Below are positions 9,115-42,043 of a stretch of DNA of 64,000 nt, in pieces (the stretch's first letter is position 1; each line of letters begins with the position of its first letter). A program made the translations under genes and the position numbers. Origin of the DNA: an uncultured Bacteroidota bacterium (GTDB lineage: Bacteria > Bacteroidota > Bacteroidia > Flavobacteriales > Flavobacteriaceae); the NCBI GenBank assembly GCA_902597545.1, contig CACJYD010000008.1, positions 1-64,000 of the forward strand, in the 5' to 3' direction. The notes under the pieces were generated by a model. That model saw only the letters and a list, made by a program, of their open reading frames with translations, was not told the DNA's origin and made no database searches.

Positions 9115-9122
9115 CAAATGTA
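9115..9122 (-). promoter_or_regulatory. Bacteroidota -7 box upstream of panB
   Basis: On the minus strand this reads TACATTTG, a full match to the TAnnTTTG -7 consensus of the flavobacterial housekeeping sigma factor. Only four bases (GCAA) separate it from the panB ATG, so transcription would begin at or next to the start codon. No clear TTG-type -33 element is present. Confidence 0.55.
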
Positions 9123-9145
9123 ATTAAAAATTAAACTAAAAAAAC

Positions 9146-9184
9146 TGCCATAGTGTCAGCTATACAAAATGGCATAAATCTTGG
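9146..9184 (+). promoter_or_regulatory. Inverted repeat and sigma-54-like element upstream of dnaK
   Basis: TGCCAT at 9146-9151 and ATGGCA at 9169-9174 form a perfect 6-bp inverted repeat with a 17-bp spacer. The right arm is the start of TGGCAT-N5-TTGG (9170-9184), which fits the sigma-54 -24/-12 spacing (TGGCAC-N5-TTGC) with two mismatches. Either could provide stress control of dnaK. The reading as an operator or as a sigma-54 promoter is inference. Confidence 0.35.
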
Positions 9185-9195
9185 ACTAGGTCTGC

Positions 9196-9203
9196 TAAAT
9201 TTG
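9196..9203 (+). promoter_or_regulatory. Bacteroidota -7 box upstream of dnaK
   Basis: TAAATTTG fully matches TAnnTTTG and is followed by four bases and the dnaK ATG. If used, the transcript would be leaderless or nearly so. It lies just downstream of the sigma-54-like element, so dnaK may have two start sites. Confidence 0.5.
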
Positions 9204-9207
9204 AATT

Positions 9208-11112
9208 ATGAGTAAAATAATTGGTATAGATTTAGGAACAACAAATTCATGTGTTTCTGTAATGGAAGGTAATGAACCGGTTGTTATTCCTAACGCGGAG
9301 GGTAAAAGAACAACTCCATCGGTGATTGCATTTGTTGAAGGCGGTGAGATTAAAGTTGGTGATCCTGCCAAAAGACAGGCTGTTACAAATCCAACAAAAA
9401 CAATATCATCCATCAAGAGATTCATGGGAAGCAAATTTTCAGAGTCAAAAGATGATGCTAAAAGATCTGCTTATAAAGTTGTAAAAGGTGATAATGATAC
9501 ATCAAGAGTTGATATTGATGGAAGATTATACACTCCACAGGAATTGTCTGCTATGATTCTTCAAAAAATGAAAAAAACTGCAGAGGATTATCTAGGCACA
9601 ACTGTTTCGGAGGCTGTTGTTACAGTTCCAGCATATTTTAATGATGCACAAAGACAAGCAACTAAAGAAGCAGGTGAGATATCAGGTTTGAAGGTTCAAA
9701 GAATTATTAACGAACCAACTGCTGCAGCATTAGCATATGGCCTTGATAAATCAAATAAAGATCAAAAAATTGCTGTATACGACTTAGGTGGAGGTACTTT
9801 TGACATATCTATCCTTGAATTAGGAGATGGAGTGTTTGAAGTGTTATCAACCAATGGTGATACTAGACTGGGTGGTGATGATTTTGATGAAGCAATAATC
9901 CAGTGGATGGCATTTGAATATGAGGAAGAAGAAGGTGTTGATTTGAGAAAAGACCCAATGGCTCTTCAAAGACTGAAAGAGGCGGCTGAAAAAGCTAAGA
10001 TTGAATTATCTTCATCTACACAAACTGAAATTAATTTACCTTACATTTCTGCAACTGATGCAGGCCCAAAACACTTAGTTAAAACTTTAACTAGGTCTAA
10101 GTTTGAACAATTATGTTCAGATCTTGTTAAAAGATCTATGGAACCTGTTAAGAAAGCTTTAAAGGATGCAGGATTAAATAAATCGGATATTGATGAGGTT
10201 ATTTTAGTTGGAGGTTCAACTAGAATCCCTGTTATTCAAAATGAAGTAGAAAAATTCTTTGGTAAAAAGCCATCAAAAGGTGTAAATCCAGATGAAGTTG
10301 TCGCTGTAGGTGCAGCCATCCAGGGTGGTGTACTAACTGGAGATGTTAAAGATGTCTTATTGTTAGACGTTACACCTTTATCTTTAGGTATTGAAACAAT
10401 GGGTGGGGTAATGACTAAGTTAATTGAATCCAATACTACAATTCCATCAAAAAAATCACAGGTCTTCTCAACTGCTGCTGATAACCAACCATCTGTAGAA
10501 ATCCATGTTTTACAGGGTGAAAGATCAATGGCAAAAGACAATAAAACCATTGGAAGATTCCACTTAGATGGTATTCCTCCTTCACCGAGAGGTGTACCTC
10601 AAATAGAGGTAACTTTTGACATTGATGCAAATGGTATTATTCAGGTTACAGCTTTGGATAAAGCTACTAATAAATCACAGGATATTAGAATTGAAGCGTC
10701 CTCTGGACTCACTGAAGAAGAGATTGAAAAAATGAAAAAAGAAGCTGAAGCAAATGCTGAATCTGATAAAAAATTGAAAGAAGAAGTTGATACTCTAAAC
10801 AGTGCTGATGCTATGATTTTTCAAACTGAAAGTCAGTTAAAAGAATATGGCGATAAAATACCTGATGATAAAAAGAAGGCTATTGAAGATGCTCTTGAAA
10901 CATTAAAAAAAGCTCATGAATCAAAAGATATTGAATTGATAAAAACTGAGCTTGAAAAAATTAATGAAACGTGGAAAAATGCATCTGAAGAATTGTATAA
11001 AGCTCAGGCAGAATCTGCAAAATCAACTGATCAAGAACCTAAAAATTCTAGTAAGAAAAATAAAGGTTCTGATGATGATGTTCAAGATGTAGATTTTGAG
11101 GAAGTAAAATAA
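9208..11112 (+). CDS. dnaK: Molecular chaperone DnaK (Hsp70)
   Basis: DnaK is the ATP-driven cytoplasmic chaperone that folds and disaggregates proteins with DnaJ and GrpE. The 634-residue protein has the three ATPase signatures [26 protein letters not shown] and [11 protein letters not shown], then the interdomain linker [14 protein letters not shown], the substrate-binding domain and an acidic tail ending [11 protein letters not shown]. Length is typical. dnaJ and grpE are not next to it. It is a single-gene unit with its own upstream control region (9146-9203) and a strong terminator directly after it. Confidence 0.98.
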
Positions 11113-11130
11113 TTAAGACTTCTATTTATA

Positions 11131-11159
11131 AAAACGTGTCTTTGGACACGTTTTTTTTT
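11131..11159 (+). terminator. Rho-independent terminator after dnaK
   Basis: AAAACGTGTC (11131-11140) and GACACGTTTT (11145-11154) form a perfect 10-bp stem closed by a TTTG loop, followed by a T run to 11159. It starts 18 bp after the dnaK stop codon. Confidence 0.93.
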
Positions 11160-11191
11160 GCTTTGTGTTAAAAATTTATACACATATGTAT

Positions 11192-11199
11192 TACATTTG
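11192..11199 (+). promoter_or_regulatory. Bacteroidota -7 box upstream of the PAS-UbiA gene
   Basis: TACATTTG matches TAnnTTTG and lies 18 nt before the chosen ATG at 11218. It follows the dnaK terminator, so the downstream cluster probably has its own promoter here. Confidence 0.5.
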
Positions 11200-11217
11200 C
11201 CATCTAATTTATTCTAT

Positions 11218-12582
11218 ATGAAAAGTGTTATAACATGCGACTTAGAAGGTGTAATAGAAACTATAAACTCAGATGGTGAAAAACTATTTGGTTATCCAAA
11301 AGAAGAGCTTATCGGTAAAAAGAGAGTGTCTTTATTTTCCTCTGGTGAAGTAGTAATTCAGAATGTTGGAAAATGGCTTTCATCTGCAATAAAAGATGGA
11401 GAACATAATACCAAGACATATTTTATAAGAAAGGATGGATCCAAGTTTAATGCTGCAATAAAAATAACCCCAACTTTTAAAAATGGAAAAAATAAGCCTC
11501 AAACTGGATATTGTGGAATTACAATTCCAATTACTGAGGAAGTAAAAATTCCAATTAAATTTTCAACAATATTTATTAAGTGGGCCTTTGCTATTACAAG
11601 AGGAGGTTTTACAAGCGCATCATTGTTTCCAATTTTTACGCTAGCTGCATTTTTTGCAGGATCTGGTGATGGTTTATTTAATGTACTTTCTTTGATATTA
11701 TGTTGTCTAGGTATAGTTTTATTGCATGTTTCTTCCAACTTATTTAATGATTATTATGATGTAAAGGATGGTACTGATGGTGCCAATACAGAATATTTTA
11801 ATGCTGGTTTAAATTCAACCGTTCTTGAGGGAGCTCAACTTTCAGGTGGAAGCAGAGCAGTCGAGCTAGGTTTAATTACACATAAGGGAACATTGTCATT
11901 GGCTAGAAAAATGTTACTTGGAGCATTACTAGTTACTGCACTCTTACTTTATAATAGCTTTTTAATAACTGGAGAAATAGCAAATGCACAAAATGCTCTC
12001 ATCATAGGAGTTGTTGGAGGTCTGTTAGGTTATTTTTATACAGCTAGACCCATTAGGTTAGTCTCGAGAAGAGGTCTTGGTGAAGTTGCTATTTTTTTAG
12101 CATTTGGACCAGTACTTACACTTGGAGCTTTATTTGCAATCTCAAGCAATACTGTTGAACTATTTTCAACTGAATTTTATAATGCTATATATCTTGGAAT
12201 TCCTTTTGGTTTTTTGACAACAAATATATTATACATTAATCAGTACCCAGATACTGTCAGTGATGCTACGACAGGTAAAAATCACTTAATTGTTACTCTT
12301 GGCAAGAAAAATGCTAGATGGGGTTATTTGTTATTATTATCTGCAGCATTTGGATCCTCAATTTATATGACAGATATATTTGCTGACAATCTATTAAACT
12401 TTAATAAAAATATATTTTATGCTGGTAATGCAATATTGTTTATCTATGGTTTTTTTGCATTTATCAACTTGTTTAAAAATTATGATAATAGAGAATTGAT
12501 TCATTCAAACCTAAAAACGATATATTTGCAGATATTTTATGGATTGTTTATGATAATAGTTCTTAATTTATTTTTTATTTAA
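11218..12582 (+). CDS. PAS domain-UbiA prenyltransferase fusion
   Basis: UbiA enzymes attach polyprenyl chains to aromatic or other acceptors in the membrane (menaquinone, haem O and similar). From the ATG at 11218 the protein has 454 residues. Residues 1 to about 105 form a PAS fold (CDLEGVIETINSDGEKLFGY, then KEELIGKKRVSLFS, then a FIRKDGSKFNAAI strand). The rest is a multi-span UbiA domain with both Asp-rich motifs: NLFNDYYDVKDGTD and NQYPDTVSDATTG. A TTG 20 codons upstream lies in the dnaK terminator and is rejected as start. The acceptor is unknown; the first motif resembles dihydroxynaphthoate prenyltransferases. It is followed 0 bp later by the CPBP gene. A sensor domain joined to a prenyltransferase is uncommon; I believe the architecture recurs in flavobacteria. 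Confidence 0.8.
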   Translation: MKSVITCDLEGVIETINSDGEKLFGYPKEELIGKKRVSLFSSGEVVIQNVGKWLSSAIKDGEHNTKTYFIRKDGSKFNAAIKITPTFKNGKNKPQTGYCGITIPITEEVKIPIKFSTIFIKWAFAITRGGFTSASLFPIFTLAAFFAGSGDGLFNVLSLILCCLGIVLLHVSSNLFNDYYDVKDGTDGANTEYFNAGLNSTVLEGAQLSGGSRAVELGLITHKGTLSLARKMLLGALLVTALLLYNSFLITGEIANAQNALIIGVVGGLLGYFYTARPIRLVSRRGLGEVAIFLAFGPVLTLGALFAISSNTVELFSTEFYNAIYLGIPFGFLTTNILYINQYPDTVSDATTGKNHLIVTLGKKNARWGYLLLLSAAFGSSIYMTDIFADNLLNFNKNIFYAGNAILFIYGFFAFINLFKNYDNRELIHSNLKTIYLQIFYGLFMIIVLNLFFI

Positions 12583-13512
12583 ATGTTTATTGAAAAAGCA
12601 AAAAATATTAAAAATGATTGGTGGAGATATTTTCTTGTTGGTCCACTAATTATTTTTTCCTTTTGGCAAATTTTAGGAGGAATACCTTTTGGAGTAGGAC
12701 TTGCCCTAAATATGAATCCAGACAATCTTGATGCACTTCAATCCAATGATACGGCTGCCATGTTTTCTTTATTTCCAACAAAAAATGTTGGATTGGTATT
12801 ATTTTTATTAATGTTTGCTGTAGGCTCTCTAGGATTGTACATAACGATTAAGTTTTTACACAATCAATCTTTAACATCATTGACCACATCAAGAGATAAA
12901 ATTGATTTTTCAAGAGTATTTTATTCTTTTTTCTTAGTTATTGGTATTACAATAATTTTATTTCCAATTGATATATTACTGTCCCCAGAAGATTATGAAC
13001 TCACCTTTAACCTAAATCAATTTTTAATCCTTCTTATAATTTGCTTAACACTATTGCCAATTCAAACAAGTTTTGAAGAATATTTGATGAGAGGCTATTT
13101 GCTACAAGGCATTGGAATAACTACTAAAAGTAGATTTTTAGCGTTTACAATACCATCCATATTGTTCGGTCTATTACATTTTACCAACCCTGAGATCGAT
13201 AAACTCGGTAATACATTTATTTTCGCTTACCTAATTATGGGTTTTTTCCTTGGTTTGATAACACTAATGGATGAAGGATTAGAATTAGCATTGGGGTGGC
13301 ACTACGCGAACAATGTTGCAGCTGCATTATTAGTTACCGCAGATTGGACAGTTTTGCAAACTGATTCAATCTATAAATATGTTGGTGAACCTGATGTGAC
13401 TTCACAAATATTACCAGCATTAATTATTTTTCCTATTCTTATCTATCATTTTTCTGTCAAATACAAGTGGTCTGGGTGGAAAGAAAAATTATTTGGAAAA
13501 GTAAAAATTTAA
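12583..13512 (+). CDS. CPBP family intramembrane metalloprotease
   Basis: Members of the CAAX protease/bacteriocin-processing (CPBP, Abi) family are membrane-embedded glutamate/histidine proteases, often of unknown substrate. The 309-residue protein is very hydrophobic with about eight spans. It has all three family motifs: EEYLMRG near residue 165, FGLLH near 195 and WHYANN near 240. The first codon directly abuts the stop of the PAS-UbiA gene, so the two are translated together. Association with prenyl chemistry recalls the CAAX-prenyl link, but this is only suggestive. Confidence 0.85.
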   Translation: MFIEKAKNIKNDWWRYFLVGPLIIFSFWQILGGIPFGVGLALNMNPDNLDALQSNDTAAMFSLFPTKNVGLVLFLLMFAVGSLGLYITIKFLHNQSLTSLTTSRDKIDFSRVFYSFFLVIGITIILFPIDILLSPEDYELTFNLNQFLILLIICLTLLPIQTSFEEYLMRGYLLQGIGITTKSRFLAFTIPSILFGLLHFTNPEIDKLGNTFIFAYLIMGFFLGLITLMDEGLELALGWHYANNVAAALLVTADWTVLQTDSIYKYVGEPDVTSQILPALIIFPILIYHFSVKYKWSGWKEKLFGKVKI

Positions 13513-13513
13513 T

Positions 13514-13693
13514 ATGGGAATGAATAAAAATTCAATTTTTGCTTGGGCATCATTTATCCTTTTTTTAATTGGATCTTCGCTTATACTTTTAGGAGTATTT
13601 AAATACCCAGAATATTTAGTTGAGCTTACACTTGCTGGATTAGGTTTTATAACAATTGGATGGGCTTTTAATGCCCTCAAGGGGAGAGTTTAA
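13514..13693 (+). CDS. Small two-span membrane protein, CAL67264 family
   Basis: A 59-residue gene starting one base after the CPBP stop codon. The protein begins MGMNKNSIFAWASFI, has two hydrophobic segments (about residues 8-28 and 36-53) and ends FNALKGRV. The beginning and end match my memory of the flavobacterial CAL67264 family of small membrane proteins, whose function is unknown. Its position as third gene after PAS-UbiA and CPBP makes it a candidate partner of one of these. Family assignment is from recall of the conserved ends; function is not known. Confidence 0.75.
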   Translation: MGMNKNSIFAWASFILFLIGSSLILLGVFKYPEYLVELTLAGLGFITIGWAFNALKGRV

Positions 13694-13698
13694 CTAAT

Positions 13699-15090
13699 TT
13701 ATTTTCCTGTCATTTTTTTTGGATCAACCCACTGATCAAACTCATTACTTGTTAAGTACTTTGATTTAATCGCTTCTTCTTTAAGAGTTGTACCATTTCT
13801 ATATGCATTGTTAGCAATTTCTGCAGCTTTATAATATCCAATTTTATTGTTCAGTGCAGTAACGAGCATTAATGAATTATTTAGATGTTCTTCAATTATT
13901 TTTTTATTTGCTTTTAATCCCGAAACACAATTTTTTTCGAAACTAATTACAGAATCAGTTAATAATTTTAAGGATTCTATAATTTTTGAAGCCATTAGTG
14001 GTTTATACACATTTAGTTCAAGATGACCTTGAGTACCAGCAAAGCTTATAGTGTGATCATTACCAATAATTTGAGCACAAACCATGCAAATTGCCTCACA
14101 TTGTGTTGGATTAATTTTTCCAGGCATAATAGAACTTCCAGGCTCATTTGCAGGTAATATCAACTCTGAAAAACCAGCTCTTGGACCACTTCCTAACAAT
14201 CTAATATCATTTGCTATTTTGTAAATTGATATAGCAAGTTGTTTAATAGATGAGTGTGTTTCAACTATAGCATCATGAGACGCAATCGCTTCAAATTTGT
14301 TTTCTGCAACCTTGAAATTAATATTACAATACTTTGAAATATTTTTCACTGTTAATTTGTCAAATCCCTCCGGACAATTTAATCCAGTCCCAACTGCTGT
14401 TCCACCAATTGCCAATTCAGATAGATGATCTAATGAGTTTCGTAAAGATTTTAAACCATGCTTTATTTGTGATGCATATCCTGAAAATTCCTGTCCCAAA
14501 GTCAATGGTGTGGCATCCATTAAATGGGTTCTACCAATTTTTACATCCTTATCAAATTCTTTTTCCTTTGCTATTAAAGTTTTATGAAAGCTCTCAAGTG
14601 CTGGAATAACTTTTTCCTTAACCAATTTAAAAGTTGCTATATGCATGGCAGTAGGAAATGAGTCATTTGAAGATTGGGATTTGTTGACATCATCATTTGG
14701 CTTTAGAGTTTTATTAATATCACTTAACTTTTTACCTTCCAATATGTGTGCAATATTTGAGATAACTTCGTTGAGATTCATATTAGTTTGAGTACCAGAA
14801 CCAGTTTGCCAAATAACTAATGGGAATTCTTTGTCATGTTTACCCTCAATTATTTCATCACATGCTTTAACAATTAACTCCATCTTCGCTTTTTCAACTG
14901 TTCCCAGTTCATAATTAGACTTGGCACAAGCTTTTTTTAAAATAGCATATGCATATATGATTTCAATGGGCATTGAACCCTCTTTTCCTATTTTAAAGTT
15001 ATTGATTGATCTTTGAGTCTGCGGTCCCCACAGTGAATCCATAGGGATTTGTACTTTTCCAAGGGTATCTGACTCTGTTCTGAATTTCAT
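13699..15090 (-). CDS. fumC: Class II fumarate hydratase
   Basis: FumC interconverts fumarate and malate in the TCA cycle without an iron-sulfur cluster. From the ATG at 15090 (MKFRTESDTLGKVQIP) the protein has 463 residues, the usual length; a start seven codons upstream would add a non-family MYYIFCS peptide. Motifs are SGTQTNMNLNEV, GRTHLMDATPLTLGQEFSGY and the fumarase/aspartase signature GSSIMPGKINP near residue 318. It is a single-gene unit. A TAACTTTG box lies 18 nt upstream. Class II fumarase rather than argininosuccinate or aspartate lyase is supported by overall similarity. Confidence 0.95.
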   Translation of the reverse strand: MKFRTESDTLGKVQIPMDSLWGPQTQRSINNFKIGKEGSMPIEIIYAYAILKKACAKSNYELGTVEKAKMELIVKACDEIIEGKHDKEFPLVIWQTGSGTQTNMNLNEVISNIAHILEGKKLSDINKTLKPNDDVNKSQSSNDSFPTAMHIATFKLVKEKVIPALESFHKTLIAKEKEFDKDVKIGRTHLMDATPLTLGQEFSGYASQIKHGLKSLRNSLDHLSELAIGGTAVGTGLNCPEGFDKLTVKNISKYCNINFKVAENKFEAIASHDAIVETHSSIKQLAISIYKIANDIRLLGSGPRAGFSELILPANEPGSSIMPGKINPTQCEAICMVCAQIIGNDHTISFAGTQGHLELNVYKPLMASKIIESLKLLTDSVISFEKNCVSGLKANKKIIEEHLNNSLMLVTALNNKIGYYKAAEIANNAYRNGTTLKEEAIKSKYLTSNEFDQWVDPKKMTGK

Positions 15091-15108
15091 AGAACAAAAA
15101 ATATAATA

Positions 15109-15116
15109 CAAAGTTA
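15109..15116 (-). promoter_or_regulatory. Bacteroidota -7 box upstream of fumC
   Basis: TAACTTTG on the minus strand matches TAnnTTTG and lies 18 nt before the fumC ATG, leaving a short leader. Confidence 0.5.
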
Positions 15117-15184: not shown

Positions 15185-15192
15185 TATCTTTG
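15185..15192 (+). promoter_or_regulatory. Bacteroidota -7 box before the 54-residue membrane protein gene
   Basis: TATCTTTG matches TAnnTTTG exactly. Six bases separate it from the ATG at 15199, so the message is probably leaderless. It also supports the reality of that very small gene. Confidence 0.5.
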
Positions 15193-15198: not shown

Positions 15199-15363
15199 AT
15201 GTTTGAATTTGATCAATATCTTGGCTTTCTTTTATTTATGACAGTCGTAACAATGGGATTCTGGCTCATGATACTTCTTTTAACTTTTATAATACCTTAC
15301 TGGGTTACTGGTTCCTTTTTTGAATGGTTAAATGAAAGAAAAAATAAAAATTCTAGTAAGTAG
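15199..15363 (+). CDS. Small single-span membrane protein, unknown function
   Basis: A 54-codon reading frame starting MFEFDQYLGFLLFMTVVT. One long hydrophobic segment (about residues 8-33) is followed by YWVTGSFFEWLNERKNKNSSK, a polar, basic tail typical of a cytoplasmic end. It lies alone on the plus strand between fumC and prfB (both minus), ends one base from the prfB stop codon, and has a good -7 box six bases before its ATG. I do not recognise the family. The combination of promoter, start, membrane profile and basic tail makes it more likely than not to be a real gene. Confidence 0.6.
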   Translation: MFEFDQYLGFLLFMTVVTMGFWLMILLLTFIIPYWVTGSFFEWLNERKNKNSSK

Positions 15364-15364
15364 T

Positions 15365-19934: not shown

Positions 19935-19942
19935 TACATTTG
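19935..19942 (+). promoter_or_regulatory. Bacteroidota -7 box upstream of pyrR
   Basis: TACATTTG matches TAnnTTTG with seven bases to the pyrR ATG at 19950. It probably drives the long pyrR-to-ppx transcript, with no room for a PyrR attenuator in the leader. Confidence 0.55.
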
Positions 19943-19949
19943 CACTTTG

Positions 19950-20510
19950 ATGAGCGTGAAGAACCACAAAAAAATTATTGACGCCTCAAAACTTTCATTA
20001 ATTCTTAATCGATTAGCAAGTCAGTTATTTGAAAAACACAATGACTTTTCTAATGCTGTCATAATTGGTATTCAACCAAGAGGTAAAGAGTTGTCCATCA
20101 AGTTGAAGGAATTAATCGAAAAGAATTATAATATTTCAAAAATTGATATTGGATTTTTAGACGTCACTTTTTTTAGAGATGATTTTGGAAGAGAAAATAA
20201 GATTTTAAGTGCAAATAAAACATCCATTGATTTTATTGTGGAGGATAAAATAGTGATTTTGGTTGATGATGTTTTGTACACTGGAAGGAGCATTCGGTCT
20301 GCTTTGACTGCATTGCAGTCATTTGGAAGACCAAAAAAAGTTGAACTATTAACTTTAATTGATAGAAGATTTTCCAGGCATTTACCGATTCAACCTGATT
20401 ATTGTGGAATTCAAGTTGATTCAATAAACAACCAAAGACTGACTGTTAAGTGGAAAGAGAATGATGGTGAGGATGCAGTTTACATATATATAAAAGATGG
20501 GAAAAATTAG
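19950..20510 (+). CDS. pyrR: PyrR-type uracil phosphoribosyltransferase/regulator
   Basis: PyrR proteins have uracil phosphoribosyltransferase activity and in Firmicutes also bind pyr mRNA. From the ATG at 19950 (MSVKNHKKIIDASKL) the protein has 186 residues. It shows the NAVIIGIQPRGKELS segment and the PRPP-binding loop VILVDDVLYTGRSIRSAL near residue 93-110, both typical of PyrR. It overlaps pyrB by 14 bp. The start codon lies seven bases after a -7 box, so there is no leader in which RNA attenuation could occur; the enzymatic role is more likely here. Confidence 0.88.
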   Translation: MSVKNHKKIIDASKLSLILNRLASQLFEKHNDFSNAVIIGIQPRGKELSIKLKELIEKNYNISKIDIGFLDVTFFRDDFGRENKILSANKTSIDFIVEDKIVILVDDVLYTGRSIRSALTALQSFGRPKKVELLTLIDRRFSRHLPIQPDYCGIQVDSINNQRLTVKWKENDGEDAVYIYIKDGKN

Positions 20511-26533: not shown

Positions 26534-28231
26534 TCATAAATCTAGTTTTAAATCTTTTTTAAACTCATTTAAAATTGGATTTATTTCATTTAATTTATCA
26601 AATTTTTCTTGAGGAGTAGAATAATATTCTTTATTAATTGATTCATCAATATTTACCTCAAGTACTATTTGGTCATTTTTGAGATTTGATTTTAAAAAGT
26701 CACAAATATTTTCTCTATCTAAGTCAATTTCTTTTTTATTACTTTTTGAAGGGACATTAAATAAAATTTTATTTTCTTCAAAAATTGAAGGTTCACTAAT
26801 TTCCATTAAGCTTGATAAGCTATTGTTTCCTTTTTCTGATAAATTTTTTGAATATTTTTTCCAATATAGTTTTAATGCATCTAAATCAAATTTATTTTCT
26901 AAGGATATTTTGTTTTCCTTTTCCTTTTCCTTTTCGATATTTACTTCCTTTTTTAGTTTAAGACTTGATAATGATAATGCACTTATTTCTGGATTTTCAA
27001 TTTTTTTAGGTTCTATTTCAGATCCTATATTTAAATCTTTAATTTTCTCTCTTTTTGTATCAATCTTTGTATTTATTTTTTGGTGTGGTTCATTTTTTTC
27101 AATCTTTGAGTCTTGGATACTTTTTCCTAAATCATCTTTTTTTTTTTCGACTGTTTTATCATTAATTTGATTGCTTTGATTGACTTTACATAATTTCATT
27201 AATGTGATTTCAACCAATAACTTTTTATTTTCAACCTGATTATATTTAAATATAGAACTTTCAACTATTGTAATGTGATCAACCAACTCAGAATTAGATA
27301 ACATATTACCTTGTTCGATAAAGGAATTCATGATTTCATTGCTAAATTCAAATAAACTATGTGATTCATTGGATTTAGAGATAAGAATATTTCTAAAATG
27401 ACTAGCTAAGCCAGTTAAAAAATCTTTTTCATTGAAACCTTTTTCACAAATTTTATTGAATGAAATTATTGACGATATAAGATCTTTTTCAAAAATATTT
27501 TTTGAAATATTTAAATATGATTCATTATCTAAAATATTAAGAAGTGCAGAGGTCTTTTCTGTAGTTATATTTTTATTTGTAAAACTTACAATTCTGTCGA
27601 GGATAGTTAACGAATCTCGCAAGGAACCATCAGATTTTCTTGATATAATTGAAACTGCTTCATCTTCAAATTCAAACCCTTCTTTTTTACAAATATCCTT
27701 TAGACAATTACTTATTTCTGAATCCTTAATTCTATTAAAATCATAAATCTGACACCTAGATAAAATTGTTGGAAGAATTTTATTTTTTTCAGTAGTTGCT
27801 AGAATAAAAACTATATGAGGTGGAGGTTCTTCGAGAGTTTTTAAAAAAGCATTTTCAGCTTGTTTGGATAGCATGTGGACTTCATCAATGATATATACTT
27901 TATATTTTCCAATCTGCGGAGGAATTCTAACTTTTTCAATTAAATCCCTAATATCATCTGTCTTATTATTTGAAGCAGCGTCTATTTCAAAAATATTAAA
28001 TGAGTAGTCTGGATTTTCTAAATTTTGAACACTTTCTGAATTTATTTCTTTAGCATAAATTCTAGCACAAGATGTTTTACCAACGCCCCTAGGGCCACAA
28101 AAAAGTAAAGCCGATGGAATTTTATTTTCAATAATTGAGTTTTTTAATGTCTTTGTAACATGGTCTTGCCCAACCACTGAGTCAAAATCTTTTGGTCTGT
28201 ATTTAAGCGAGGAAACAACAAAATTACTCAT
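26534..28231 (-). CDS. dnaX: DNA polymerase III subunit gamma/tau
   Basis: DnaX is the motor of the clamp loader and, in its long form, tethers polymerases at the fork. The 565-residue protein has the Walker A loop CGPRGVGKTSCAR near residue 45, IDEVHMLSKQAENAFLK near 115 and the ILSRCQIYDFNRI Arg-finger segment. A charged low-complexity linker (about 360-430, with runs such as EKEKEKEN) leads to a C-terminal tau-type domain. The Cys residues of the zinc module seen in E. coli are absent, as I recall for relatives. An 11-A tract at codon 362 could give a shorter gamma form. The ATG is 5 nt after a TATATTTG box. Confidence 0.95.
   Translation of the reverse strand: MSNFVVSSLKYRPKDFDSVVGQDHVTKTLKNSIIENKIPSALLFCGPRGVGKTSCARIYAKEINSESVQNLENPDYSFNIFEIDAASNNKTDDIRDLIEKVRIPPQIGKYKVYIIDEVHMLSKQAENAFLKTLEEPPPHIVFILATTEKNKILPTILSRCQIYDFNRIKDSEISNCLKDICKKEGFEFEDEAVSIISRKSDGSLRDSLTILDRIVSFTNKNITTEKTSALLNILDNESYLNISKNIFEKDLISSIISFNKICEKGFNEKDFLTGLASHFRNILISKSNESHSLFEFSNEIMNSFIEQGNMLSNSELVDHITIVESSIFKYNQVENKKLLVEITLMKLCKVNQSNQINDKTVEKKKDDLGKSIQDSKIEKNEPHQKINTKIDTKREKIKDLNIGSEIEPKKIENPEISALSLSSLKLKKEVNIEKEKEKENKISLENKFDLDALKLYWKKYSKNLSEKGNNSLSSLMEISEPSIFEENKILFNVPSKSNKKEIDLDRENICDFLKSNLKNDQIVLEVNIDESINKEYYSTPQEKFDKLNEINPILNEFKKDLKLDL
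27137..27147 (-). promoter_or_regulatory. 11-A slippage tract in dnaX
   Basis: The coding strand reads GTCG, eleven A, then GATGATTTAGG (Val-Glu-Lys-Lys-Lys-Asp-Asp). It sits near codon 362, at the junction between the clamp-loader core and the tau-specific part. One extra A gives AGA TGA, and one fewer gives AAG ATG ATT TAG, so either slip stops translation within three codons. That would yield a gamma-sized protein, as known for Thermus dnaX. Confidence 0.5.
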
Positions 28232-28236: not shown

Positions 28237-28244
28237 CAAATATA
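28237..28244 (-). promoter_or_regulatory. Bacteroidota -7 box upstream of dnaX
   Basis: TATATTTG on the minus strand matches TAnnTTTG and is five bases from the dnaX ATG, indicating a leaderless or near-leaderless message. Confidence 0.5.
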
Positions 28245-28286: not shown

Positions 28287-28294
28287 TAAATTTG
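28287..28294 (+). promoter_or_regulatory. Bacteroidota -7 box upstream of rnpB
   Basis: TAAATTTG matches TAnnTTTG and ends 4-5 bases before the predicted first base of RNase P RNA. Because the RNA 5' end is set by its terminal helix, this acts as an internal calibration for box-to-start distance in this genome. Confidence 0.6.
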
Positions 28295-28297
28295 TTT

Positions 28298-28580
28298 TGG
28301 CAGGCTACCTTATCGCTTTTTTAAAGAGGAAAGTCCGGACACCAAAGAGCATTACAACGGGTAACACCCGTCGCTAGTAATAGTAGGAAAAGTGCAACAG
28401 AAAGAATGTACAGTCAGGCTGTAGTGAAATCATGTAAACTCTGTAAGGTGAAACGCCAAGTATATCAACTTTAAGGATTGCTCGTCCAATGTTGAAGGGT
28501 AGGCGGTTTGAGTATAATAGTAATATTATGCCAAGATAAATGATAAGGCTTGACAGAATCCGGCTTACAGGCCTGCCTTT
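28298..28580 (+). ncRNA. rnpB: RNase P RNA, class A
   Basis: Catalytic RNA that matures tRNA 5' ends. Conserved elements appear in the right order: GAGGAAAGTCCGGAC near 28324, CAACAGAAA near 28397, GGTGAAACGCCAAG near 28447, AGGGTAGGCGG near 28495 and TGACAGAATCCGGCTTA near 28552. The 5' GGCAGGC pairs with 3' GCCTGCC (ending about 28577) to form helix P1. It lies between divergent dnaX and convergent wbqC. The ends are accurate to a few bases. Confidence 0.95.
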
Positions 28581-28582
28581 TA

Positions 28583-29173
28583 TTAAAAATAATTTTTAGA
28601 GTCTGGTCCGCAATTGAATATCAAATCAAGAATACTCAAATCATTTATAAAACCATTAGAAACTTGAAATGTTTGAGTGTATTTCTTTTCTAATAATTCA
28701 CGTGTTCTTTTAGTATTTGATAAATAAAATAAGTTAATAAATTCCTTTTCTTTAGCGTTAAAGTTTTCTTTAGGCATTTCTAGATTAATCCATTTACAAA
28801 CTAAATTTATTGAAGCAAAATTTAATTGATGTAGATATTCATAGTCTGATTCATAAAAAAATGAAATATCATCTTCATAAAATTCAAAAAAAGGGGATGA
28901 CTGATAACATATTTTAATGGATTTAAAATGAGTTTTTTTCCAGTTTGAAGAATTATCTATTTTAATTTTAGAAAATTTTCGCGGAACATTTTTTCCAGAA
29001 TGCTTGATTGGAACTGTTAACATTAATTCGCCATTAGATGAGTCGATGTAAGTTCTATTGGTTAGTGTTTGTTTATTGTACCTAGAGTTGATACTCCATT
29101 GTAAGTTATTTGATGAAATGTGTTTCCAGTGCGAAATTGGAGGAAAATAAGTAGGTTCAAGGACCTTAAGCAT
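28583..29173 (-). CDS. WbqC family protein
   Basis: WbqC-like proteins occur in surface polysaccharide loci; some are thought to modify amino-sugar nucleotides, but the reaction is not well established. The 196-residue protein has the family pattern: EPTYFPPISHWKHI at the N-terminus, the RTYIDSSNGELMLTVPIKHSG segment and a WKKTHFKSIKICYQSSPFF stretch near the middle. It overlaps the lepB end by 8 bp and is the last gene of the parA-parB-dapB-lepB operon, where I recall it in other flavobacteria. Confidence 0.8.
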   Translation of the reverse strand: MLKVLEPTYFPPISHWKHISSNNLQWSINSRYNKQTLTNRTYIDSSNGELMLTVPIKHSGKNVPRKFSKIKIDNSSNWKKTHFKSIKICYQSSPFFEFYEDDISFFYESDYEYLHQLNFASINLVCKWINLEMPKENFNAKEKEFINLFYLSNTKRTRELLEKKYTQTFQVSNGFINDLSILDLIFNCGPDSKNYF

Positions 29174-36452: not shown

Positions 36453-36460
36453 TAATTTTG
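36453..36460 (+). promoter_or_regulatory. Bacteroidota -7 box upstream of trxB
   Basis: TAATTTTG matches TAnnTTTG with five bases to the trxB ATG. It lies 56 bp beyond the divergent tRNA-Pro gene. Confidence 0.55.
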
Positions 36461-36465: not shown

Positions 36466-37410
36466 ATGTCTCATGAAAAAATTAAAACTTTAATTATCGG
36501 TTCAGGGCCTGCTGGTTATACAGCTGCTATTTATGCCTCAAGAGCTGATTTAAAACCAGTTTTATATACTGGAATGGAACCTGGTGGTCAGCTTACTACA
36601 ACAACAGATGTTGATAATTTTCCTGGATATCCAAATGGAATTGATGGGCCAAAAATGATGGAAGAACTTAAAGCGCAAGCTGAGAGGTTTGGAACAGACG
36701 TTAGAATTGGAGAAGCCACTAAAGTAAAATTTTCTAAAAATGGTAATGATTTGCATGAAATAACAATTGATCATGATAAGGTTCTTCAAGCTGAGACAGT
36801 AATAATCTCTACTGGTGCATCAGCAAAGTATTTAGGTTTGGAAAGTGAGCAAAGATTAATTGGAGGAGGTGTCTCTGCATGTGCTGTTTGTGATGGTTTT
36901 TTTTATAAAGGTCAAGAGGTTGCAATAGTTGGTGGTGGTGATACGGCAGCTGAGGAAGCAACGTACCTTTCAAATATATGTTCAAAGGTTACTATGCTCG
37001 TAAGAAAAGGTGAAATGAGAGCTTCAAAGGCTATGCAACATAGAGTTAACTCTAAAGCTAATATTGATCTTAGATACAATACTGAGGTAGTTGAAGTTCT
37101 TGGCGATAATGTTGTAGAGGGTTTAAAAATTGTCAACAATAAAACACAAGAAATTGAGGACATTAACATTACAGGGTTTTTTGTTGCTATTGGTCATAAA
37201 CCAAATACTGATTTATTTCAAGGACAGTTAGATATGGATGAGACTGGATATATTAAAACAAATGGAAAGACAACCAAAACTAATATTCCTGGTGTTTTTG
37301 CATCTGGGGACGTTCAAGATAAAGAATACAGGCAAGCTGTGACTGCAGCAGGAACCGGCTGTATGGCTGCATTGGATGCAGAAAGATATTTAGCCTCTAG
37401 AGCTAATTAG
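36466..37410 (+). CDS. trxB: Thioredoxin reductase
   Basis: TrxB is an FAD enzyme that reduces thioredoxin with NADPH. From the ATG at 36466 (MSHEKIKTLIIGSGPAGYTAA) it has 314 residues. It shows the FAD loop GSGPAGYTAAIYASRA, the redox pair in SACAVCDGFFYKG near residue 137, the NADPH loop VAIVGGGDTAAEEA and GVFASGDVQDKEYRQAVTAAG. An open frame continues upstream through the tRNA-Pro gene, but only the ATG start fits the family. It is followed 1 bp later by a DUF4442 gene. Confidence 0.96.
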   Translation: MSHEKIKTLIIGSGPAGYTAAIYASRADLKPVLYTGMEPGGQLTTTTDVDNFPGYPNGIDGPKMMEELKAQAERFGTDVRIGEATKVKFSKNGNDLHEITIDHDKVLQAETVIISTGASAKYLGLESEQRLIGGGVSACAVCDGFFYKGQEVAIVGGGDTAAEEATYLSNICSKVTMLVRKGEMRASKAMQHRVNSKANIDLRYNTEVVEVLGDNVVEGLKIVNNKTQEIEDINITGFFVAIGHKPNTDLFQGQLDMDETGYIKTNGKTTKTNIPGVFASGDVQDKEYRQAVTAAGTGCMAALDAERYLASRAN

Positions 37411-37411
37411 T

Positions 37412-37855: not shown

Positions 37856-37900
37856 CATTTTTTTAAATAAAAACTATCACTATTGTTTATAATTTTAGAT

Positions 37901-38083
37901 ATGTCGCGTCAAGTTTTCAAGTACACAAAAAAAGTTTTAAAGAAAGTTACATTTAACTTTTATTTATTTAAAAAAGAATTAAAAAAAGCTTCTTTAGTTT
38001 TATTACCCCATGAATATGAAGAGCTTAAAATATGGGTTGAAAATTATATAAACAAACACCCACACCTAATTGGTGTACTTTAA
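37901..38083 (+). CDS. Conserved 60-residue flavobacterial protein, unknown function
   Basis: From the ATG at 37901 the protein reads MSRQVFKYTKKVLKKVTFN and continues with LLPHEYEELKIWVENYINKH. I recall this start and the LLPxExEEL pattern as a conserved small protein in Bacteroidota, usually slightly longer at the C-terminus. It has no signal or membrane segment and is likely all-helical and cytoplasmic. An upstream in-frame ATG at 37883 would add MFIILD, which does not fit the conserved start. Its stop overlaps the convergent isomerase gene by 4 bp. Confidence 0.7.
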   Translation: MSRQVFKYTKKVLKKVTFNFYLFKKELKKASLVLLPHEYEELKIWVENYINKHPHLIGVL

Positions 38084-38775
38084 TCAATAATTTTAACTTT
38101 TATTTTAACATTATCAATTGGCCACTCTCTTTTATCGGTTTCAATGTTGGAAATAATATCAACAACATCCATCCCCTTAATTACTTTACCAAATGGTGTA
38201 TAATTCTTATCTAAGTGATAAGCCCCATTTTTATCTACAACAATAAAAAATTCATATGGTGAGGCTAGTTTATAAGGATTATCTATATCACTGCTTGGTA
38301 TTGATATAACTCCTCTATGATGCTTAAATCCTTTCTTGGTATCGGGTGGTAATAAGTATCTTCCTATTTTACGTCTTCTTTTGGAAATTTCATATGAATC
38401 TGAATTTCCACCTTGAATAATAAAATCCTTTACCACTCTATGAAATGAAGTCCCATCAAAATATTTTTTTTTGGTTAAGTAGATAAAATTAGATCTGTGA
38501 TATGGTGTTTCATTAAATAATTGAATATCTATATTACCAAATCTTGTTTCTATACGAACTTTATTTTCTTTATTTTGTTTATCATATTCAAAAAAGAATG
38601 GTATTGCATTCTCATCATTTAAAATAAATTCATTTGCTACAGACTTGACTGCATTTTTTTCTATTTTTTTTACTGATTTTTGTTCAATTATAGGTTTAGG
38701 TTTATTTTGACATGATGTTATCATGATTGCGCAAATCAATAAATTTGGAAAATGAAATTTGATGTATTTAAACAT
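38080..38775 (-). CDS. Peptidyl-prolyl isomerase, cyclophilin-type lipoprotein
   Basis: Cyclophilins catalyse cis-trans isomerisation at proline. The 231-residue protein has a lipoprotein signal (FPNLLICAIMITSC), so it is placed in the cell envelope. A linker leads to the cyclophilin domain from about residue 77 (VRIETRFGNIDIQLFNETPYHRSNFIYL, then FDGTSFHRVVKDFIIQGGNSD). A 20-residue insert rich in basic residues follows the FIIQGG core. Its first 24 bases overlap, on the opposite strand, the start of the NUDIX gene. Confidence 0.9.
   Translation of the reverse strand: MFKYIKFHFPNLLICAIMITSCQNKPKPIIEQKSVKKIEKNAVKSVANEFILNDENAIPFFFEYDKQNKENKVRIETRFGNIDIQLFNETPYHRSNFIYLTKKKYFDGTSFHRVVKDFIIQGGNSDSYEISKRRRKIGRYLLPPDTKKGFKHHRGVISIPSSDIDNPYKLASPYEFFIVVDKNGAYHLDKNYTPFGKVIKGMDVVDIISNIETDKREWPIDNVKIKVKIID
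38740..38747 (+). promoter_or_regulatory. Bacteroidota -7 box upstream of the NUDIX gene
   Basis: TAAATTTG matches TAnnTTTG with four bases to the ATG at 38752. It lies inside the signal-peptide coding part of the divergent isomerase gene. Confidence 0.5.
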
Positions 38776-39372
38776 AGATTGATAAAATTAAAAAATAAAT
38801 CTCTTCCTGGTGTTCAATCTCATTTAGAATTAGCACCAAAAAACAGAATTCAACTATTAAAAAAGTTTAAATTAAATTCGAAAACCCATGATGCAGCAGT
38901 CTCATTATGTTTTTACCCAGATTTAAACAACGATGTCATACTTCCATTAATTTTAAGAAATGAATATGATGGAGTTCACTCTAATCAGATTTCTCTCCCT
39001 GGTGGAAAAAAAGAGTATGATGATTCAGATTTAATTGAAACATCGAAAAGAGAAACTTTTGAAGAAATTGGGATAAAAAAAGGAAATATGAATTTTCAAT
39101 TCAAACTAACCGATATTTATATTCCACCTAGTAATTTTTTAGTTAGGCCATACATTTTTATTATTGAGAATACACCTTTACTAAATCCTAATCGTGATGA
39201 AGTTGTTAAAGTAATTAAACCAAAACTTACATCTTTGATGAATTTAAATATTCAGTACGGTTACATTAATGAAAAAAAAATAGAGTGCCCCTTTTTTTTA
39301 ATTGAAAATCATGTCGTTTGGGGAGCAACCGCTATGATTTTAAATGAATTTTTATCACTATTTGACCAATAA
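38752..39372 (+). CDS. NUDIX hydrolase, CoA pyrophosphatase-like
   Basis: CoA pyrophosphatases hydrolyse CoA or its oxidised form to phosphopantetheine and ADP. The 206-residue protein has the extended signature LPGGKKEYDDSDLIETSKRE followed by TFEEIGI, i.e. a Nudix box with REx2EE. An HLELAPKNRIQLL segment upstream fits the NudL/UPF0035 type. The N-terminus MKFDVFKHRLIKLKNKSLPG fits relatives, supporting the ATG at 38752 although it overlaps the divergent gene. Confidence 0.85.
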   Translation: MKFDVFKHRLIKLKNKSLPGVQSHLELAPKNRIQLLKKFKLNSKTHDAAVSLCFYPDLNNDVILPLILRNEYDGVHSNQISLPGGKKEYDDSDLIETSKRETFEEIGIKKGNMNFQFKLTDIYIPPSNFLVRPYIFIIENTPLLNPNRDEVVKVIKPKLTSLMNLNIQYGYINEKKIECPFFLIENHVVWGATAMILNEFLSLFDQ

Positions 39373-39404
39373 TTTATTGTCTTATATTTACCTAATTCAA
39401 AAAG

Positions 39405-40202
39405 GTGTCATTGTTCAAGAGAAATCCATTCGGTCATATACTTTTTATTAAAACCTGGTTGATTAGAATTTTAGGTCTTTTAACTCACCAAAGATTCAAA
39501 GGTTTTAATAAATTAAAAATTGAGGGCTCAGAAATTTTAAACAAAATTCCTCAGAAAAATGTATTATTTGTCTCAAATCATCAAACTTATTTTGCTGATG
39601 TTGTAGCGATGTTTCATGTTTTTAATGCGGGGCTGAGCGGGAGAGTTGACTCAATTAAAAATATCGGTTACTTGTGGAAACCAAAACTCAATATATATTT
39701 TGTTGCAGCTAAAGAAACAATGAAGGCAGGTCCTCTTCCTAGAATTTTAGCATATGCTGGCTCAGTTTCAATAGAAAGAACTTGGAGAGACAAAGGAAAA
39801 GATATTAATAGGCAAGTAAAAATGAGTGATATTTCTAATATAGGAATTGCACTAAATGATGGATGGGTTATAACTTTTCCCCAAGGTACTACAACACCAT
39901 TTAAACCAATTCGGAAAGGTACAGCACATATAATAAAAGAATTTAAGCCTGTAGTTATTCCTATTGTTATCGATGGATTTAGAAGATCCTTTGACAAAAA
40001 AGGTATCCGAATTAAAAAGAAAGGAATCCTTCAAAGTATGGAAATTAAAGAACCGTTAAAAATTGACTATCAAAATGATTCAATTGATTCAATTGTTGAA
40101 AAAATTGAATTTGCAATTGAACAACATCCTTCTTTTTTAAAGGTTATCTCAAATGAAGATCTAAGTGATATAGAGAAACTAAATACTAAAAGGAAATTTT
40201 AA
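39405..40202 (+). CDS. Lysophospholipid acyltransferase (PlsC-like)
   Basis: This membrane-associated enzyme esterifies lysophospholipids or related acceptors. The 265-residue protein starts at a GTG (MSLFKRNPFGHILFIKTWL). The acyltransferase motif I is SNHQTYFADVVAMFHVF, with His and Asp five residues apart instead of the canonical four. Motif III is FPQGTTTPF, where E of FPEG is Gln. I recall both changes as common to this flavobacterial subfamily. A role in ornithine or sulfonolipid acylation is possible but not shown. It converges on a lipoprotein gene. Confidence 0.82.
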   Translation: MSLFKRNPFGHILFIKTWLIRILGLLTHQRFKGFNKLKIEGSEILNKIPQKNVLFVSNHQTYFADVVAMFHVFNAGLSGRVDSIKNIGYLWKPKLNIYFVAAKETMKAGPLPRILAYAGSVSIERTWRDKGKDINRQVKMSDISNIGIALNDGWVITFPQGTTTPFKPIRKGTAHIIKEFKPVVIPIVIDGFRRSFDKKGIRIKKKGILQSMEIKEPLKIDYQNDSIDSIVEKIEFAIEQHPSFLKVISNEDLSDIEKLNTKRKF

Positions 40203-40204
40203 AA

Positions 40205-40954
40205 TTATTTTAACGTTACAACTCTTTCTGAGGGATTAAAAGGAGTTTCAATCAAGTTGCCTTCATTATCAACTAGTTCCAGTTTTATCGTAACATCACC
40301 TTTATCCAATCCTTCAATGTAATATGCATCCCAGCTGTCAATCATAAATTGATGAGTGAATGTTCCTTGCTTGATTGTTAATTTCACTTTATTACCTGTA
40401 GCTGATAATTTTGTATTTACCAAGTAAAAATCAAGTAACAATTTTTCAGTATCCAAACCTTCATATGTTCCTTTTGGCCTGCTGTAGAAAAGAAACTCAC
40501 TTTCTAAGTTGATTTTATTTGAATCACCAATTTGAGTGAGAACATAAGCATCAGAATTTTTAACTGACTCATGGTATGATCTGGATAGGAAAGCTAAAAC
40601 TACATTGTTTCCATTAGGCAGTTCATAATCAAAGTTTTGATCATAGTGCGCAGAGTATGGGCCATTATTTAAAATAAAATGGATGTGTTGTCCTTTAGCT
40701 GAATTTGCCAAGTCATAATCAAATTCTTTTTTTGTCTTGATGCCTAGATCATAATTGTTAATATCAAAAGAAAAATTATATTTTTCACCAGATTTAACTA
40801 TTTCTTTGATTTGTAGAGAAGAGTCTTCATAGGCAGGAGAGCCTTCAATTTTTTTCAAATAAACTTTTTGTTGATTAAATGAACAAGAAATTAATGATAT
40901 TGAAATAATAGATATAAATAATTCTCTAAAGAAATTGCCTTTTGATTTCATCAT
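40205..40954 (-). CDS. Conserved flavobacterial lipoprotein, unknown function
   Basis: A 249-residue protein with a lipoprotein signal (LFISIISISLISC, Cys near residue 24). The core reads ANSAKGQHIHFILNNGPYSAHY, then VVLAFLSRSYHESVKNSDAY, and later FYSRPKGTYEGLDTEKLLLDF, suggesting two immunoglobulin-like beta domains with a His-rich patch that might bind a ligand or metal. I recall close relatives in flavobacteria under a vague phosphopeptide-binding label. No enzymatic motif is seen. It is divergent from the DUF3089 gene with an 18-bp gap. Confidence 0.7.
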   Translation of the reverse strand: MMKSKGNFFRELFISIISISLISCSFNQQKVYLKKIEGSPAYEDSSLQIKEIVKSGEKYNFSFDINNYDLGIKTKKEFDYDLANSAKGQHIHFILNNGPYSAHYDQNFDYELPNGNNVVLAFLSRSYHESVKNSDAYVLTQIGDSNKINLESEFLFYSRPKGTYEGLDTEKLLLDFYLVNTKLSATGNKVKLTIKQGTFTHQFMIDSWDAYYIEGLDKGDVTIKLELVDNEGNLIETPFNPSERVVTLK

Positions 40955-40960
40955 ATTTGA

Positions 40961-40968
40961 TAAATTTG
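40961..40968 (+). promoter_or_regulatory. Bacteroidota -7 box upstream of the DUF3089 gene
   Basis: TAAATTTG matches TAnnTTTG with four bases to the ATG at 40973, in the 18-bp gap between divergent genes. Confidence 0.5.
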
Positions 40969-40972
40969 AATA

Positions 40973-42043
40973 ATGTCTTTTAAAAGTAGTAAAATATATA
41001 TCATTATTTCTTTTTTCTTTCTATTAAATTCTTGTGGTCTTTTAAGATCGGATAATAGAGACATAAATTATAAAATTGTAGATTTTGAGGAAAATACACC
41101 ACCTGAAAAACCAACATATGAGAATGTTGAAGATTGGTTAGTGCATCCTCAAAAAGATCTAAAAGAGTATCCTTTTTTAGATAAAAACAATGGTTTGATG
41201 AGGGCAGATGTTTTCTTCATTGTACCTACTTTATTCACAGATAAAAGAAATAAAAATTGGAATTCGGATGTATACGATAATGATTTCGCAAATACTATGA
41301 TGGAGTCAACAATCAAATATCAGTCAACCGCCTGGTTAGATTCAGGAAATTTATATTCCCCAAATTATAGGCAGGCTCATTATAAAGTTTTTGATGAGTT
41401 TAGATGGGAAAATGGAGGGAAGAGAGCATTTGAACTAGCTTATGCGGATATTAAAAGATCTTTTGAGGTATACTTGCAAAAATACAATGAGGGAAGACCA
41501 ATTATTATTGCAGGACACAGTCAAGGTTCAGGACACGCAATAAGGCTTTTGCAAGACTTTTTTGATGGTAAGAAATTGAAAAGTAAGTTGATAGCAGCAT
41601 ACTTACCAGGCACTAGGGTGACATCTAATGATTTTTTTGATTTAGAGTTGATGAGTTCACCAACTCAAACTGGAGGATATTTAACATGGAATACATATAA
41701 AATATTTAAAAAAGATAAAAAAAGAAATGTTACTGTCGATAGAGAATGGTTAATGGATGCTGAATGTTCAAATCCAGTAACATGGAATTCAAGTGGAACA
41801 AGTACGTATTCACAACACAAGGGTTTACTATTTTTAAATGAAAAGATATTCAGCAATGCCCTTGAAATTGAATATATACAAAATGGAGTTTTTTTACGAA
41901 CTCCAAAAATTGGCCTTTTCAAGTCTCTGATAATATCTACTTTGCACGATTATCACAGAGGAGATATTAATTTATTTTGGGAAGACATAAGACTTAATGC
42001 AATAATTAGGGTCCAGGAATATTTCAAAAATCTAGCTAATTGA
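40973..42043 (+). CDS. DUF3089 alpha/beta-hydrolase lipoprotein
   Basis: A 356-residue exported protein with a lipoprotein signal (IYIIISFFFLLNSC, Cys near residue 21). The DUF3089 core has ADVFFIVPTLF, the AWLDSGNLYSPNYRQAHY segment and the nucleophile elbow IIAGHSQGSGHAIRLL with Ser in GHSQG near residue 185. A late His in LHDYHRGDINLFW may complete the triad. It is probably an esterase or lipase with unknown substrate. The stop overlaps the convergent oxidoreductase gene by 12 bp. Confidence 0.85.
   Translation: MSFKSSKIYIIISFFFLLNSCGLLRSDNRDINYKIVDFEENTPPEKPTYENVEDWLVHPQKDLKEYPFLDKNNGLMRADVFFIVPTLFTDKRNKNWNSDVYDNDFANTMMESTIKYQSTAWLDSGNLYSPNYRQAHYKVFDEFRWENGGKRAFELAYADIKRSFEVYLQKYNEGRPIIIAGHSQGSGHAIRLLQDFFDGKKLKSKLIAAYLPGTRVTSNDFFDLELMSSPTQTGGYLTWNTYKIFKKDKKRNVTVDREWLMDAECSNPVTWNSSGTSTYSQHKGLLFLNEKIFSNALEIEYIQNGVFLRTPKIGLFKSLIISTLHDYHRGDINLFWEDIRLNAIIRVQEYFKNLAN

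Follow-up and report, generated by a model that had tools for sequence, protein, structure and literature searches.

The window considered here is a 64,000-nt stretch of DNA from a small-genome, uncultivated marine genus of Flavobacteriaceae. Eight of its genes have a TAnnTTTG box only 4-7 nt before the start codon, and the original prediction read these as widespread leaderless mRNAs. In order to judge whether the boxes are promoters, and whether they imply transcripts that begin at the start codon, a box scan was combined with the open reading frame starts. All eight placements were present in the sequence, and the gene names given earlier matched the Pfam/NCBIfam assignments. The boxes are listed with the number of nucleotides separating them from the start codon (the gap).

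9115..9122, minus strand: TACATTTG, box of panB (CDS 8298-9110, start 9110), gap 4
9196..9203, plus strand: TAAATTTG, box ahead of dnaK (start 9208), gap 4, probably not a promoter
15185..15192, plus strand: TATCTTTG, box of a 54-residue membrane-protein gene (15199-15363), gap 6
19935..19942, plus strand: TACATTTG, box of pyrR (CDS 19950-20510), gap 7
28237..28244, minus strand: TATATTTG, box of dnaX (CDS 26534-28231, start 28231), gap 5
36453..36460, plus strand: TAATTTTG, box of trxB (CDS 36466-37410), gap 5
38740..38747, plus strand: TAAATTTG, box of a NUDIX gene (38752-39372), gap 4
40961..40968, plus strand: TAAATTTG, box of a DUF3089 gene (40973-42043), gap 4

As had been predicted, these placements are far above chance. 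With start codons supplied by a home-made caller that is blind to promoters, 7 of the 28 window genes called first in their transcript (leading genes) had a box at gap 4-7, versus a mean of 0.15 and a maximum of 3 in 300 shuffles; the 54-residue ORF is absent from the caller's gene list, so that seven genes rather than eight were counted. Across the whole window the TAnnTTTG motif occurs 89 times, fewer than the mean of 114 in dinucleotide shuffles, of which 100 of 100 had at least 89. The GC content of our first genome sample was 30%, and the assumed AT content of about 70% was therefore right.

The distance from box to transcription start was calibrated on the RNase P RNA gene.

28287..28294, plus strand: TAAATTTG, box before rnpB, used for the box-to-+1 calibration
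28299..28583, plus strand: rnpB, encoding RNase P RNA; conservation starts at 28299, and the Rfam match spans 28297-28583

The onset of the RNA differs by method, i.e., 28297 by the Rfam match and 28299, 4 nt past the box, by conservation among relatives. All 17 genus loci have the box, exactly four varying bases and then conserved RNA, in agreement with the claim that this box lies 4-5 nt from the RNA 5' end. By conservation, rnpB thus shows the 4-5 nt between box and transcription start that is expected of Bacteroidota primary-sigma promoters; transcription in F. johnsoniae also starts 4-5 nt past the box (PMC6847099). On this four-base spacing, a gap of 4-7 would mean a leader of 0-3 nt.

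Genuine flavobacterial promoters are also marked by avoidance of G at box positions 3 and 4 (PMC6847099). When our genome was pooled with genomes G021 and G017, 2 of 41 boxes at gap 4-7 had a G at these positions, versus 391 of 1405 within genes (p = 5e-4), i.e., boxes at this distance have the TAHHTTTG form of a primary-sigma -7 element; the pyrR box of 5 of 20 relatives carries a G at position 3. A -33 TTTG element was not seen in the column frequencies upstream of the box. Given that this element is much less evident in F. johnsoniae as well (PMC6847099), it was not treated as essential here. Spacer bases -4 to -1 were less A/T-rich at gap 4-7 than ahead of operon-internal starts (GC 0.27 vs 0.15, p = 0.002); the differences from genes at gap 9-14 (p = 0.07) and from those at gap 15-20 (p = 0.13) were not significant. 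The 41 genes at gap 4-7 start with ATG in 90% of cases; the caller favours ATG, and the other classes gave 90-100%.

Conservation among orthologs well supports predicted leaderless or near-leaderless promoters for trxB, pyrR, dnaX and the 54-residue gene. All 19 trxB loci of the genus have the box, 15 of them at gap 5 and the other four at gap 4, with 16 different spacers; trxB appears to be leaderless throughout these loci but not in the 30 other genera compared, none of which has a box at gap 4-7. The pyrR gap of 7 is held in 20/20 loci with spacers that stay CRCTTTR-like (five different in 20); since gaps of 5-7 correspond to leaders of 1-3 nt, "leaderless" is a loose term for this gene. 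In dnaX, TATATTTG and a TA directly after it are present in 17/17 loci, at gap 5 in 13, gap 8 in two and gap 2 in two. In 17 of 22 loci the 54-residue gene has a perfect box whose gap is 3-6, with 15 different spacers in those 17, and the remaining five read TATCTTTA. Its product had no relatives in NCBIfam at 0.001; the sole Pfam match was below cut-off (E 0.03) and the PDB matches all had E >0.5. Ortholog counts omit paralogs and fragments (dnaX, 3 of 20 matching genomes; trxB, 3 of 22; pyrR, 2 of 22; NUDIX, 1 of 13), and that for panB omits one locus on a contig that ends too early.

Leaderless or near-leaderless promoters are more weakly supported for panB, the NUDIX gene and the DUF3089 gene. 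The panB gap of 4 is kept in 7 of 21 loci, one of which starts with GTG rather than ATG; a further five have the box 15-17 nt ahead of a shifted ATG and nine have no box. The NUDIX gene has gap 4 in 5 of 12 loci, one fragment without the N-terminus being omitted, and the DUF3089 box is found in 7 of 21 (gap 4 in four, gap 5 in three).

The exception is dnaK, which has other candidate elements upstream.

9145..9159, plus strand: CTGCCATAGTGTCAG, imperfect palindrome upstream of the sigma-54-type element, possible regulator site
9170..9183, plus strand: TGGCAT-N5-TTG, sigma-54-type -24/-12 element of dnaK

The sigma-54 -24/-12 consensus is TGGCAY-N5-TTG. This pattern lies 22-25 nt ahead of the dnaK ATG in 22/22 genus loci, whereas the TAnnTTTG box is present in 1/22, so that dnaK is probably not leaderless and probably has a sigma-54-type promoter; it was rejected as a leaderless gene. 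Matching half-sites of the palindrome are also found in 22/22 loci, and CTGCCATAGTGTCAG is a possible regulator site. In F. psychrophilum, dnaK is listed with a sigma-54 promoter (PMC9723704). Judged by ortholog conservation, the leaderless reading of the original prediction thus stands for four genes and more weakly for three, and falls for dnaK.

The predicted genome-wide enrichment of the 4-7 nt distance was borne out by gene-anchored counts on the 395 leading genes of an 864-kb sample (60% of the genome, window included). A box at gap 4-7 preceded 23 of the 367 leading genes that lie outside the window (mean 1.69, maximum 6, in 300 shuffles), versus 3 of 283 operon-internal genes there, and four start rules yielded 23-24 genes outside and 6-7 inside the window. 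Such placements are more frequent in the window than elsewhere in the sample (7/28 vs 23/367, Fisher p = 0.003), and the window therefore overstates the genome-wide rate. "Widespread" holds in the sense of a minority. The sample has 30 leading genes out of 395 at gap 4-7, and about one third of its recognisable promoters look leaderless; another peak of equal size lies at gap 15-20 (31 of 367 leading genes outside the window). Recognisable promoters lay at gap 13 or less in 47/101 cases in our sample and in 21/33 in the congener G021, versus 4/36 in G023, a member of the same family and the sole genome from outside the genus profiled gene by gene (Fisher p = 1e-4 and 1e-5, respectively). Genome G017 had 0/6 recognisable promoters at gap 0-7.

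An unanchored whole-genome count of TAHHTTTG-N4-5-ATG gave no excess over the far-gap background (61 vs 60), and in G021 the count fell under it (47 vs 63); at gap 3-8, our genome had 266 matches versus 146 for the reversed pattern. The raw count was dropped as a gauge of the leaderless share, as it is dominated by chance matches and its outcome depends on which control is used. Non-start ATGs at gap 4-5 were depleted in our sample (20 vs about 36 expected from farther gaps), which hides true starts in the raw count. A first estimate of this avoidance outside gene starts (ratio 0.47, p = 3e-6) partly reflected codon phase; phase-matched, 28 ATGs were seen where 44.5 would be expected (ratio 0.63, p = 0.0055), and of 19 motifs ATG had the lowest ratio, followed by one at 0.67. 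ATG avoidance at this distance is suggestive only.

The explanation we favour, with a probability of roughly 0.78, is that primary-sigma promoters in this genus are set so that transcripts open with the start codon or with 1-3 nt preceding it. The TAHHTTTG -7 box would be read by the primary sigma factor and transcription would begin at the fifth base past the box, so that gap 4 would place the AUG at the extreme 5' end and gap 7 would leave a 3-nt leader. Such messages would lack room for a ribosome-binding region and would most likely be initiated at the 5'-terminal AUG by the leaderless route. In the sampled genome, leaders would be short overall: about one third of recognisable promoters would be leaderless, about half would have a leader no longer than 9 nt, and others would form a second group at about 11-16 nt. 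The boxes, their placement and conservation, the spacers that vary in trxB and the 54-residue gene, and the rnpB calibration are features of the sequence, from which we infer the actual 5' ends and the translation route.

Given that start codons were predicted from sequence alone, the boxes might be genuine promoters of ordinary short leaders, with the true starts further downstream. The five panB loci with a later ATG fit such an arrangement, as do two dnaX loci (L208 and L209) whose sole nearby ATG is at gap 8. We consider this improbable, since every trxB (19/19), pyrR (20/20) and 54-residue gene (22/22) locus retains the ATG directly behind the box region, protein similarity in these three starts at residue 1, and the four start rules give the same outcome. 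Less probable still is that the placements mostly arise by chance in a 70% AT genome, or are secondary promoters beside an unseen upstream one. That would suit dnaK and the flat raw count, but the gene-anchored excess, the avoidance of G and the conservation of the box in four genes argue against it, and the depletion of non-start ATGs masks starts in the raw count.

A more serious alternative, which we think possible while leaning against it, is that the leaderless promoters are real but ordinary, i.e., a family-wide minority as in Flavobacterium. Raw gap 4-5 counts exceeded the far-gap background in 55 of 75 Flavobacteriaceae genomes (chosen from 199), our genome ranking 52nd of 75 per Mb, and in G023 a gap of exactly 4 is found for 6 of 226 leading genes. 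Published figures of 5.5% leaderless in F. psychrophilum and 13% of leaders at 10 nt or less in F. johnsoniae point the same way. Against this stand the gap profiles of our genome and G021 relative to G023, and the trxB box, at gap 4-5 in all 19 genus loci and at gap 4-7 in 0/30 of the other genera compared.

Placement of promoters at the start codon, our preferred reading, has precedents in published Bacteroidota maps, in which 3.7-13% of leaders are short or absent. F. psychrophilum, of the same family, has a TAnnTTTG box at -12 to -5 and some leaderless mRNAs, but these were measured at 5.5% of 890 CDSs, with a median leader of 24 nt (PMC9723704), whereas about one third of recognisable promoters would be leaderless here, as judged from sequence. 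F. johnsoniae shares the TAHHTTTG box, 4-5 nt to the transcription start and the lack of Shine-Dalgarno use; translation there is Kozak-like, and leaders exceed 10 nt in 87% of predicted transcripts, with an average of 33 nt (PMC6847099), whereas about half of our recognisable promoters imply 9 nt or less. The dRNA-seq map of Bacteroides thetaiotaomicron describes the same promoter class, but about 3.7% of its leaders are <10 nt (PMC7366714). Leaderless messages or 1-9 nt leaders are rare both in that species and in the one large-genome family member that we profiled. A bacterial survey also called genes leaderless from a promoter box located about 10-12 nt ahead of the start codon, but used a TATAAT-like reference box. 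It reported such genes in 1 of 37 Bacteroidetes/Chlorobi genomes (2.4%), and the authors point out that non-Pribnow signals may be missed (PMC3160421). The available text of a Red Sea marine dRNA-seq paper holds no flavobacterial leader data (PMC5069720).

Our broader reading, a tentative one that falls a little short of even odds, is that a large share of transcripts in this genus may have come to carry no leader or one of just 1-9 nt, a shift traceable gene by gene, and that ATGs are avoided elsewhere at the leaderless distance because they would be translated. Bacteroidota initiate translation without Shine-Dalgarno sequences, and leaderless messages are few in the species with published maps. 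If our reading is true, orthologs differing mainly in leader length (trxB, panB and fumC) would allow leaderless and leadered initiation to be compared on the same gene, and promoter position would provide a rule by which to annotate start codons in similar uncultivated marine bacteria.

All eight TAnnTTTG boxes of the original prediction, as well as the start codons that follow them, were found at the positions claimed, with gaps (nt between the box, a promoter -7 element, and the start codon) of 4 for panB, 4 for dnaK, 6 for a 54-residue gene at 15199, 7 for pyrR, 5 for dnaX, 5 for trxB, 4 for a NUDIX gene and 4 for a DUF3089 gene. Across the window, TAnnTTTG was less frequent than in shuffled sequence. 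Pfam and NCBIfam backed every identity except that of the 54-residue ORF (15199-15363), which had no match in either at 0.001, its protein yielding nothing above cut-off in family searches. The ORF is nevertheless considered a real gene, because it is encoded in 22 of 23 genus genomes (own included) at 80-100% identity. Its product is probably a one-pass membrane protein.

Both its DnaK matches and a survey of the family assign the window's genome to Flavobacteriaceae. Gap statistics were obtained from an 864 kb sample, ~60% of the window's own genome (assembly 1.43 Mb, 85% complete; GC 30% in a first sample), using a gene caller written for this analysis and blind to promoters. A gene counted as leading if its upstream neighbour was divergent or if 15 nt or more of free space preceded it. 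Outside the window, gaps of 4-7 preceded 23/367 leading genes (mean 1.69, maximum 6 in 300 shuffles) and gaps of 15-20 preceded 31/367 (mean 2.81, maximum 8 in 300 shuffles), with 20/367 at gap 9-14; among operon-internal genes, 3/283 had gap 4-7. Inside the window, the counts were 7/28 at gap 4-7 (shuffle mean 0.15) and 2/28 at gap 15-20. This picture was unchanged under four start-codon rules. The distribution has two peaks, one leaderless and one with leaders of ~11-16 nt.

Flavobacterial promoters shun G as the third and fourth base of the box, and F. johnsoniae transcription starts 4-5 nt past the box (PMC6847099). In our sample combined with two further genomes (G021, a congener, and G017), G was avoided at these positions at gaps 4-7 (2/41), 8-14 (3/36) and 15-20 (1/43), but not at gaps 21-50 (9/34) or inside genes (391/1405). 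In 17/17 genus loci of rnpB (RNase P RNA), the box is followed by four variable bases and then conserved RNA. Together with the F. johnsoniae starts, this spacing equates gap 4 with a leader of 0 and gap 7 with one of 3.

Conservation within the genus differed between genes. Among 19 trxB loci, the gap was 5 in 15 and 4 in four, with 16 distinct spacers; pyrR had gap 7 in 20/20. The dnaX box was present in 17/17 loci (gap 5 in 13, 8 in two, 2 in two), and the 54-residue gene had a box at gap 3-6 in 17/22, the remaining five reading TATCTTTA. Placement was kept in 5/12 NUDIX and 7/21 DUF3089 loci. For panB, 7/21 had gap 4 (one with GTG), five had a box ahead of a shifted ATG, and nine had no box. 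By contrast with the freely varying trxB spacer, that of pyrR (19943-19949, CACTTTG in own genome) takes only five forms among 20 loci, ending CTTTR in 18/20; perhaps this reflects start-site or UTP-sensing control of pyrR-pyrB. For fumC (15090-15116), the box lies at gap 18 in own genome versus gap 4 in G021.

For dnaK, a leaderless-type box was found in 1/22 loci, and TGGCAY-N5-TTG, which resembles the sigma-54 consensus, lay 22-25 nt upstream of the ATG in 22/22. At 9145-9183, this element and an imperfect palindrome upstream of it are each kept in 22/22 loci. In F. psychrophilum, dnaK is assigned to a sigma-54 promoter (PMC9723704). The leaderless reading is well supported for four of the eight genes and possible for three more, but, on genus conservation, probably wrong for dnaK.

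A recognisable promoter (TAHHTTTG at most 50 nt before a leading gene) was present for 101/395 leading genes, at gap 0-7 in 30, 8-13 in 17 and farther in 54; after background correction, gaps up to 7 make up ~32% of these promoters and gaps up to 13 make up ~49%. Uncorrected counts for the same three classes were 11, 10 and 12 of 33 in G021, 0, 2 and 4 of 6 in G017, and 4, 0 and 32 of 36 in G023 (another genus of the family; 5.3 Mb, GC 43%), where the corrected share at gap 7 or less was 9%. In the G023 sample (L179-L198), boxes stood at exactly gap 4 (6/226 leading genes) or at 15 and beyond; gaps 5-14 were empty in this large-genome sample and are occupied in the small-genome genus. Published work gives 5.5% leaderless for F. 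psychrophilum (PMC9723704), 13% with leaders no longer than 10 nt for F. johnsoniae (PMC6847099), ~3.7% of leaders under 10 nt for B. thetaiotaomicron (PMC7366714) and, with a TATAAT-like reference, leaderless genes in 1/37 Bacteroidetes/Chlorobi genomes (PMC3160421). No Bacteroidota lineage with a comparable share was reported among the literature matches listed, whose scope mostly left out subscription journals and bioRxiv preprints.

Raw counts at gap 4-5 were in excess in 55 of 75 family genomes (chosen from 199), with no excess in own genome (61 vs 60) or G021 (47 vs 63), which argues against a special status for this genus. The missing excess is due in part to depletion of non-start ATGs at gap 4-5 (20 seen vs ~36 expected from farther gaps in our sample). 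Across the sampled genomes, 28 ATGs other than gene starts stood 4-5 nt past a TAHHTTTG box vs 44.5 expected when phase-matched; codon phase accounts for part of the depletion.

Leaderless mRNAs, predicted to be widespread, would be so as a large minority, and we infer the translation step for these genes. Outside the genus, trxB was compared in 30 other genera picked from the family survey (19 small and 11 large genomes): a box lay within 50 nt in 20/30, one of them at gap 8, and 0/30 had gap 4-7. Judged from this 30-genus sample of sequences, leaderless trxB would be a derived state of the genus.
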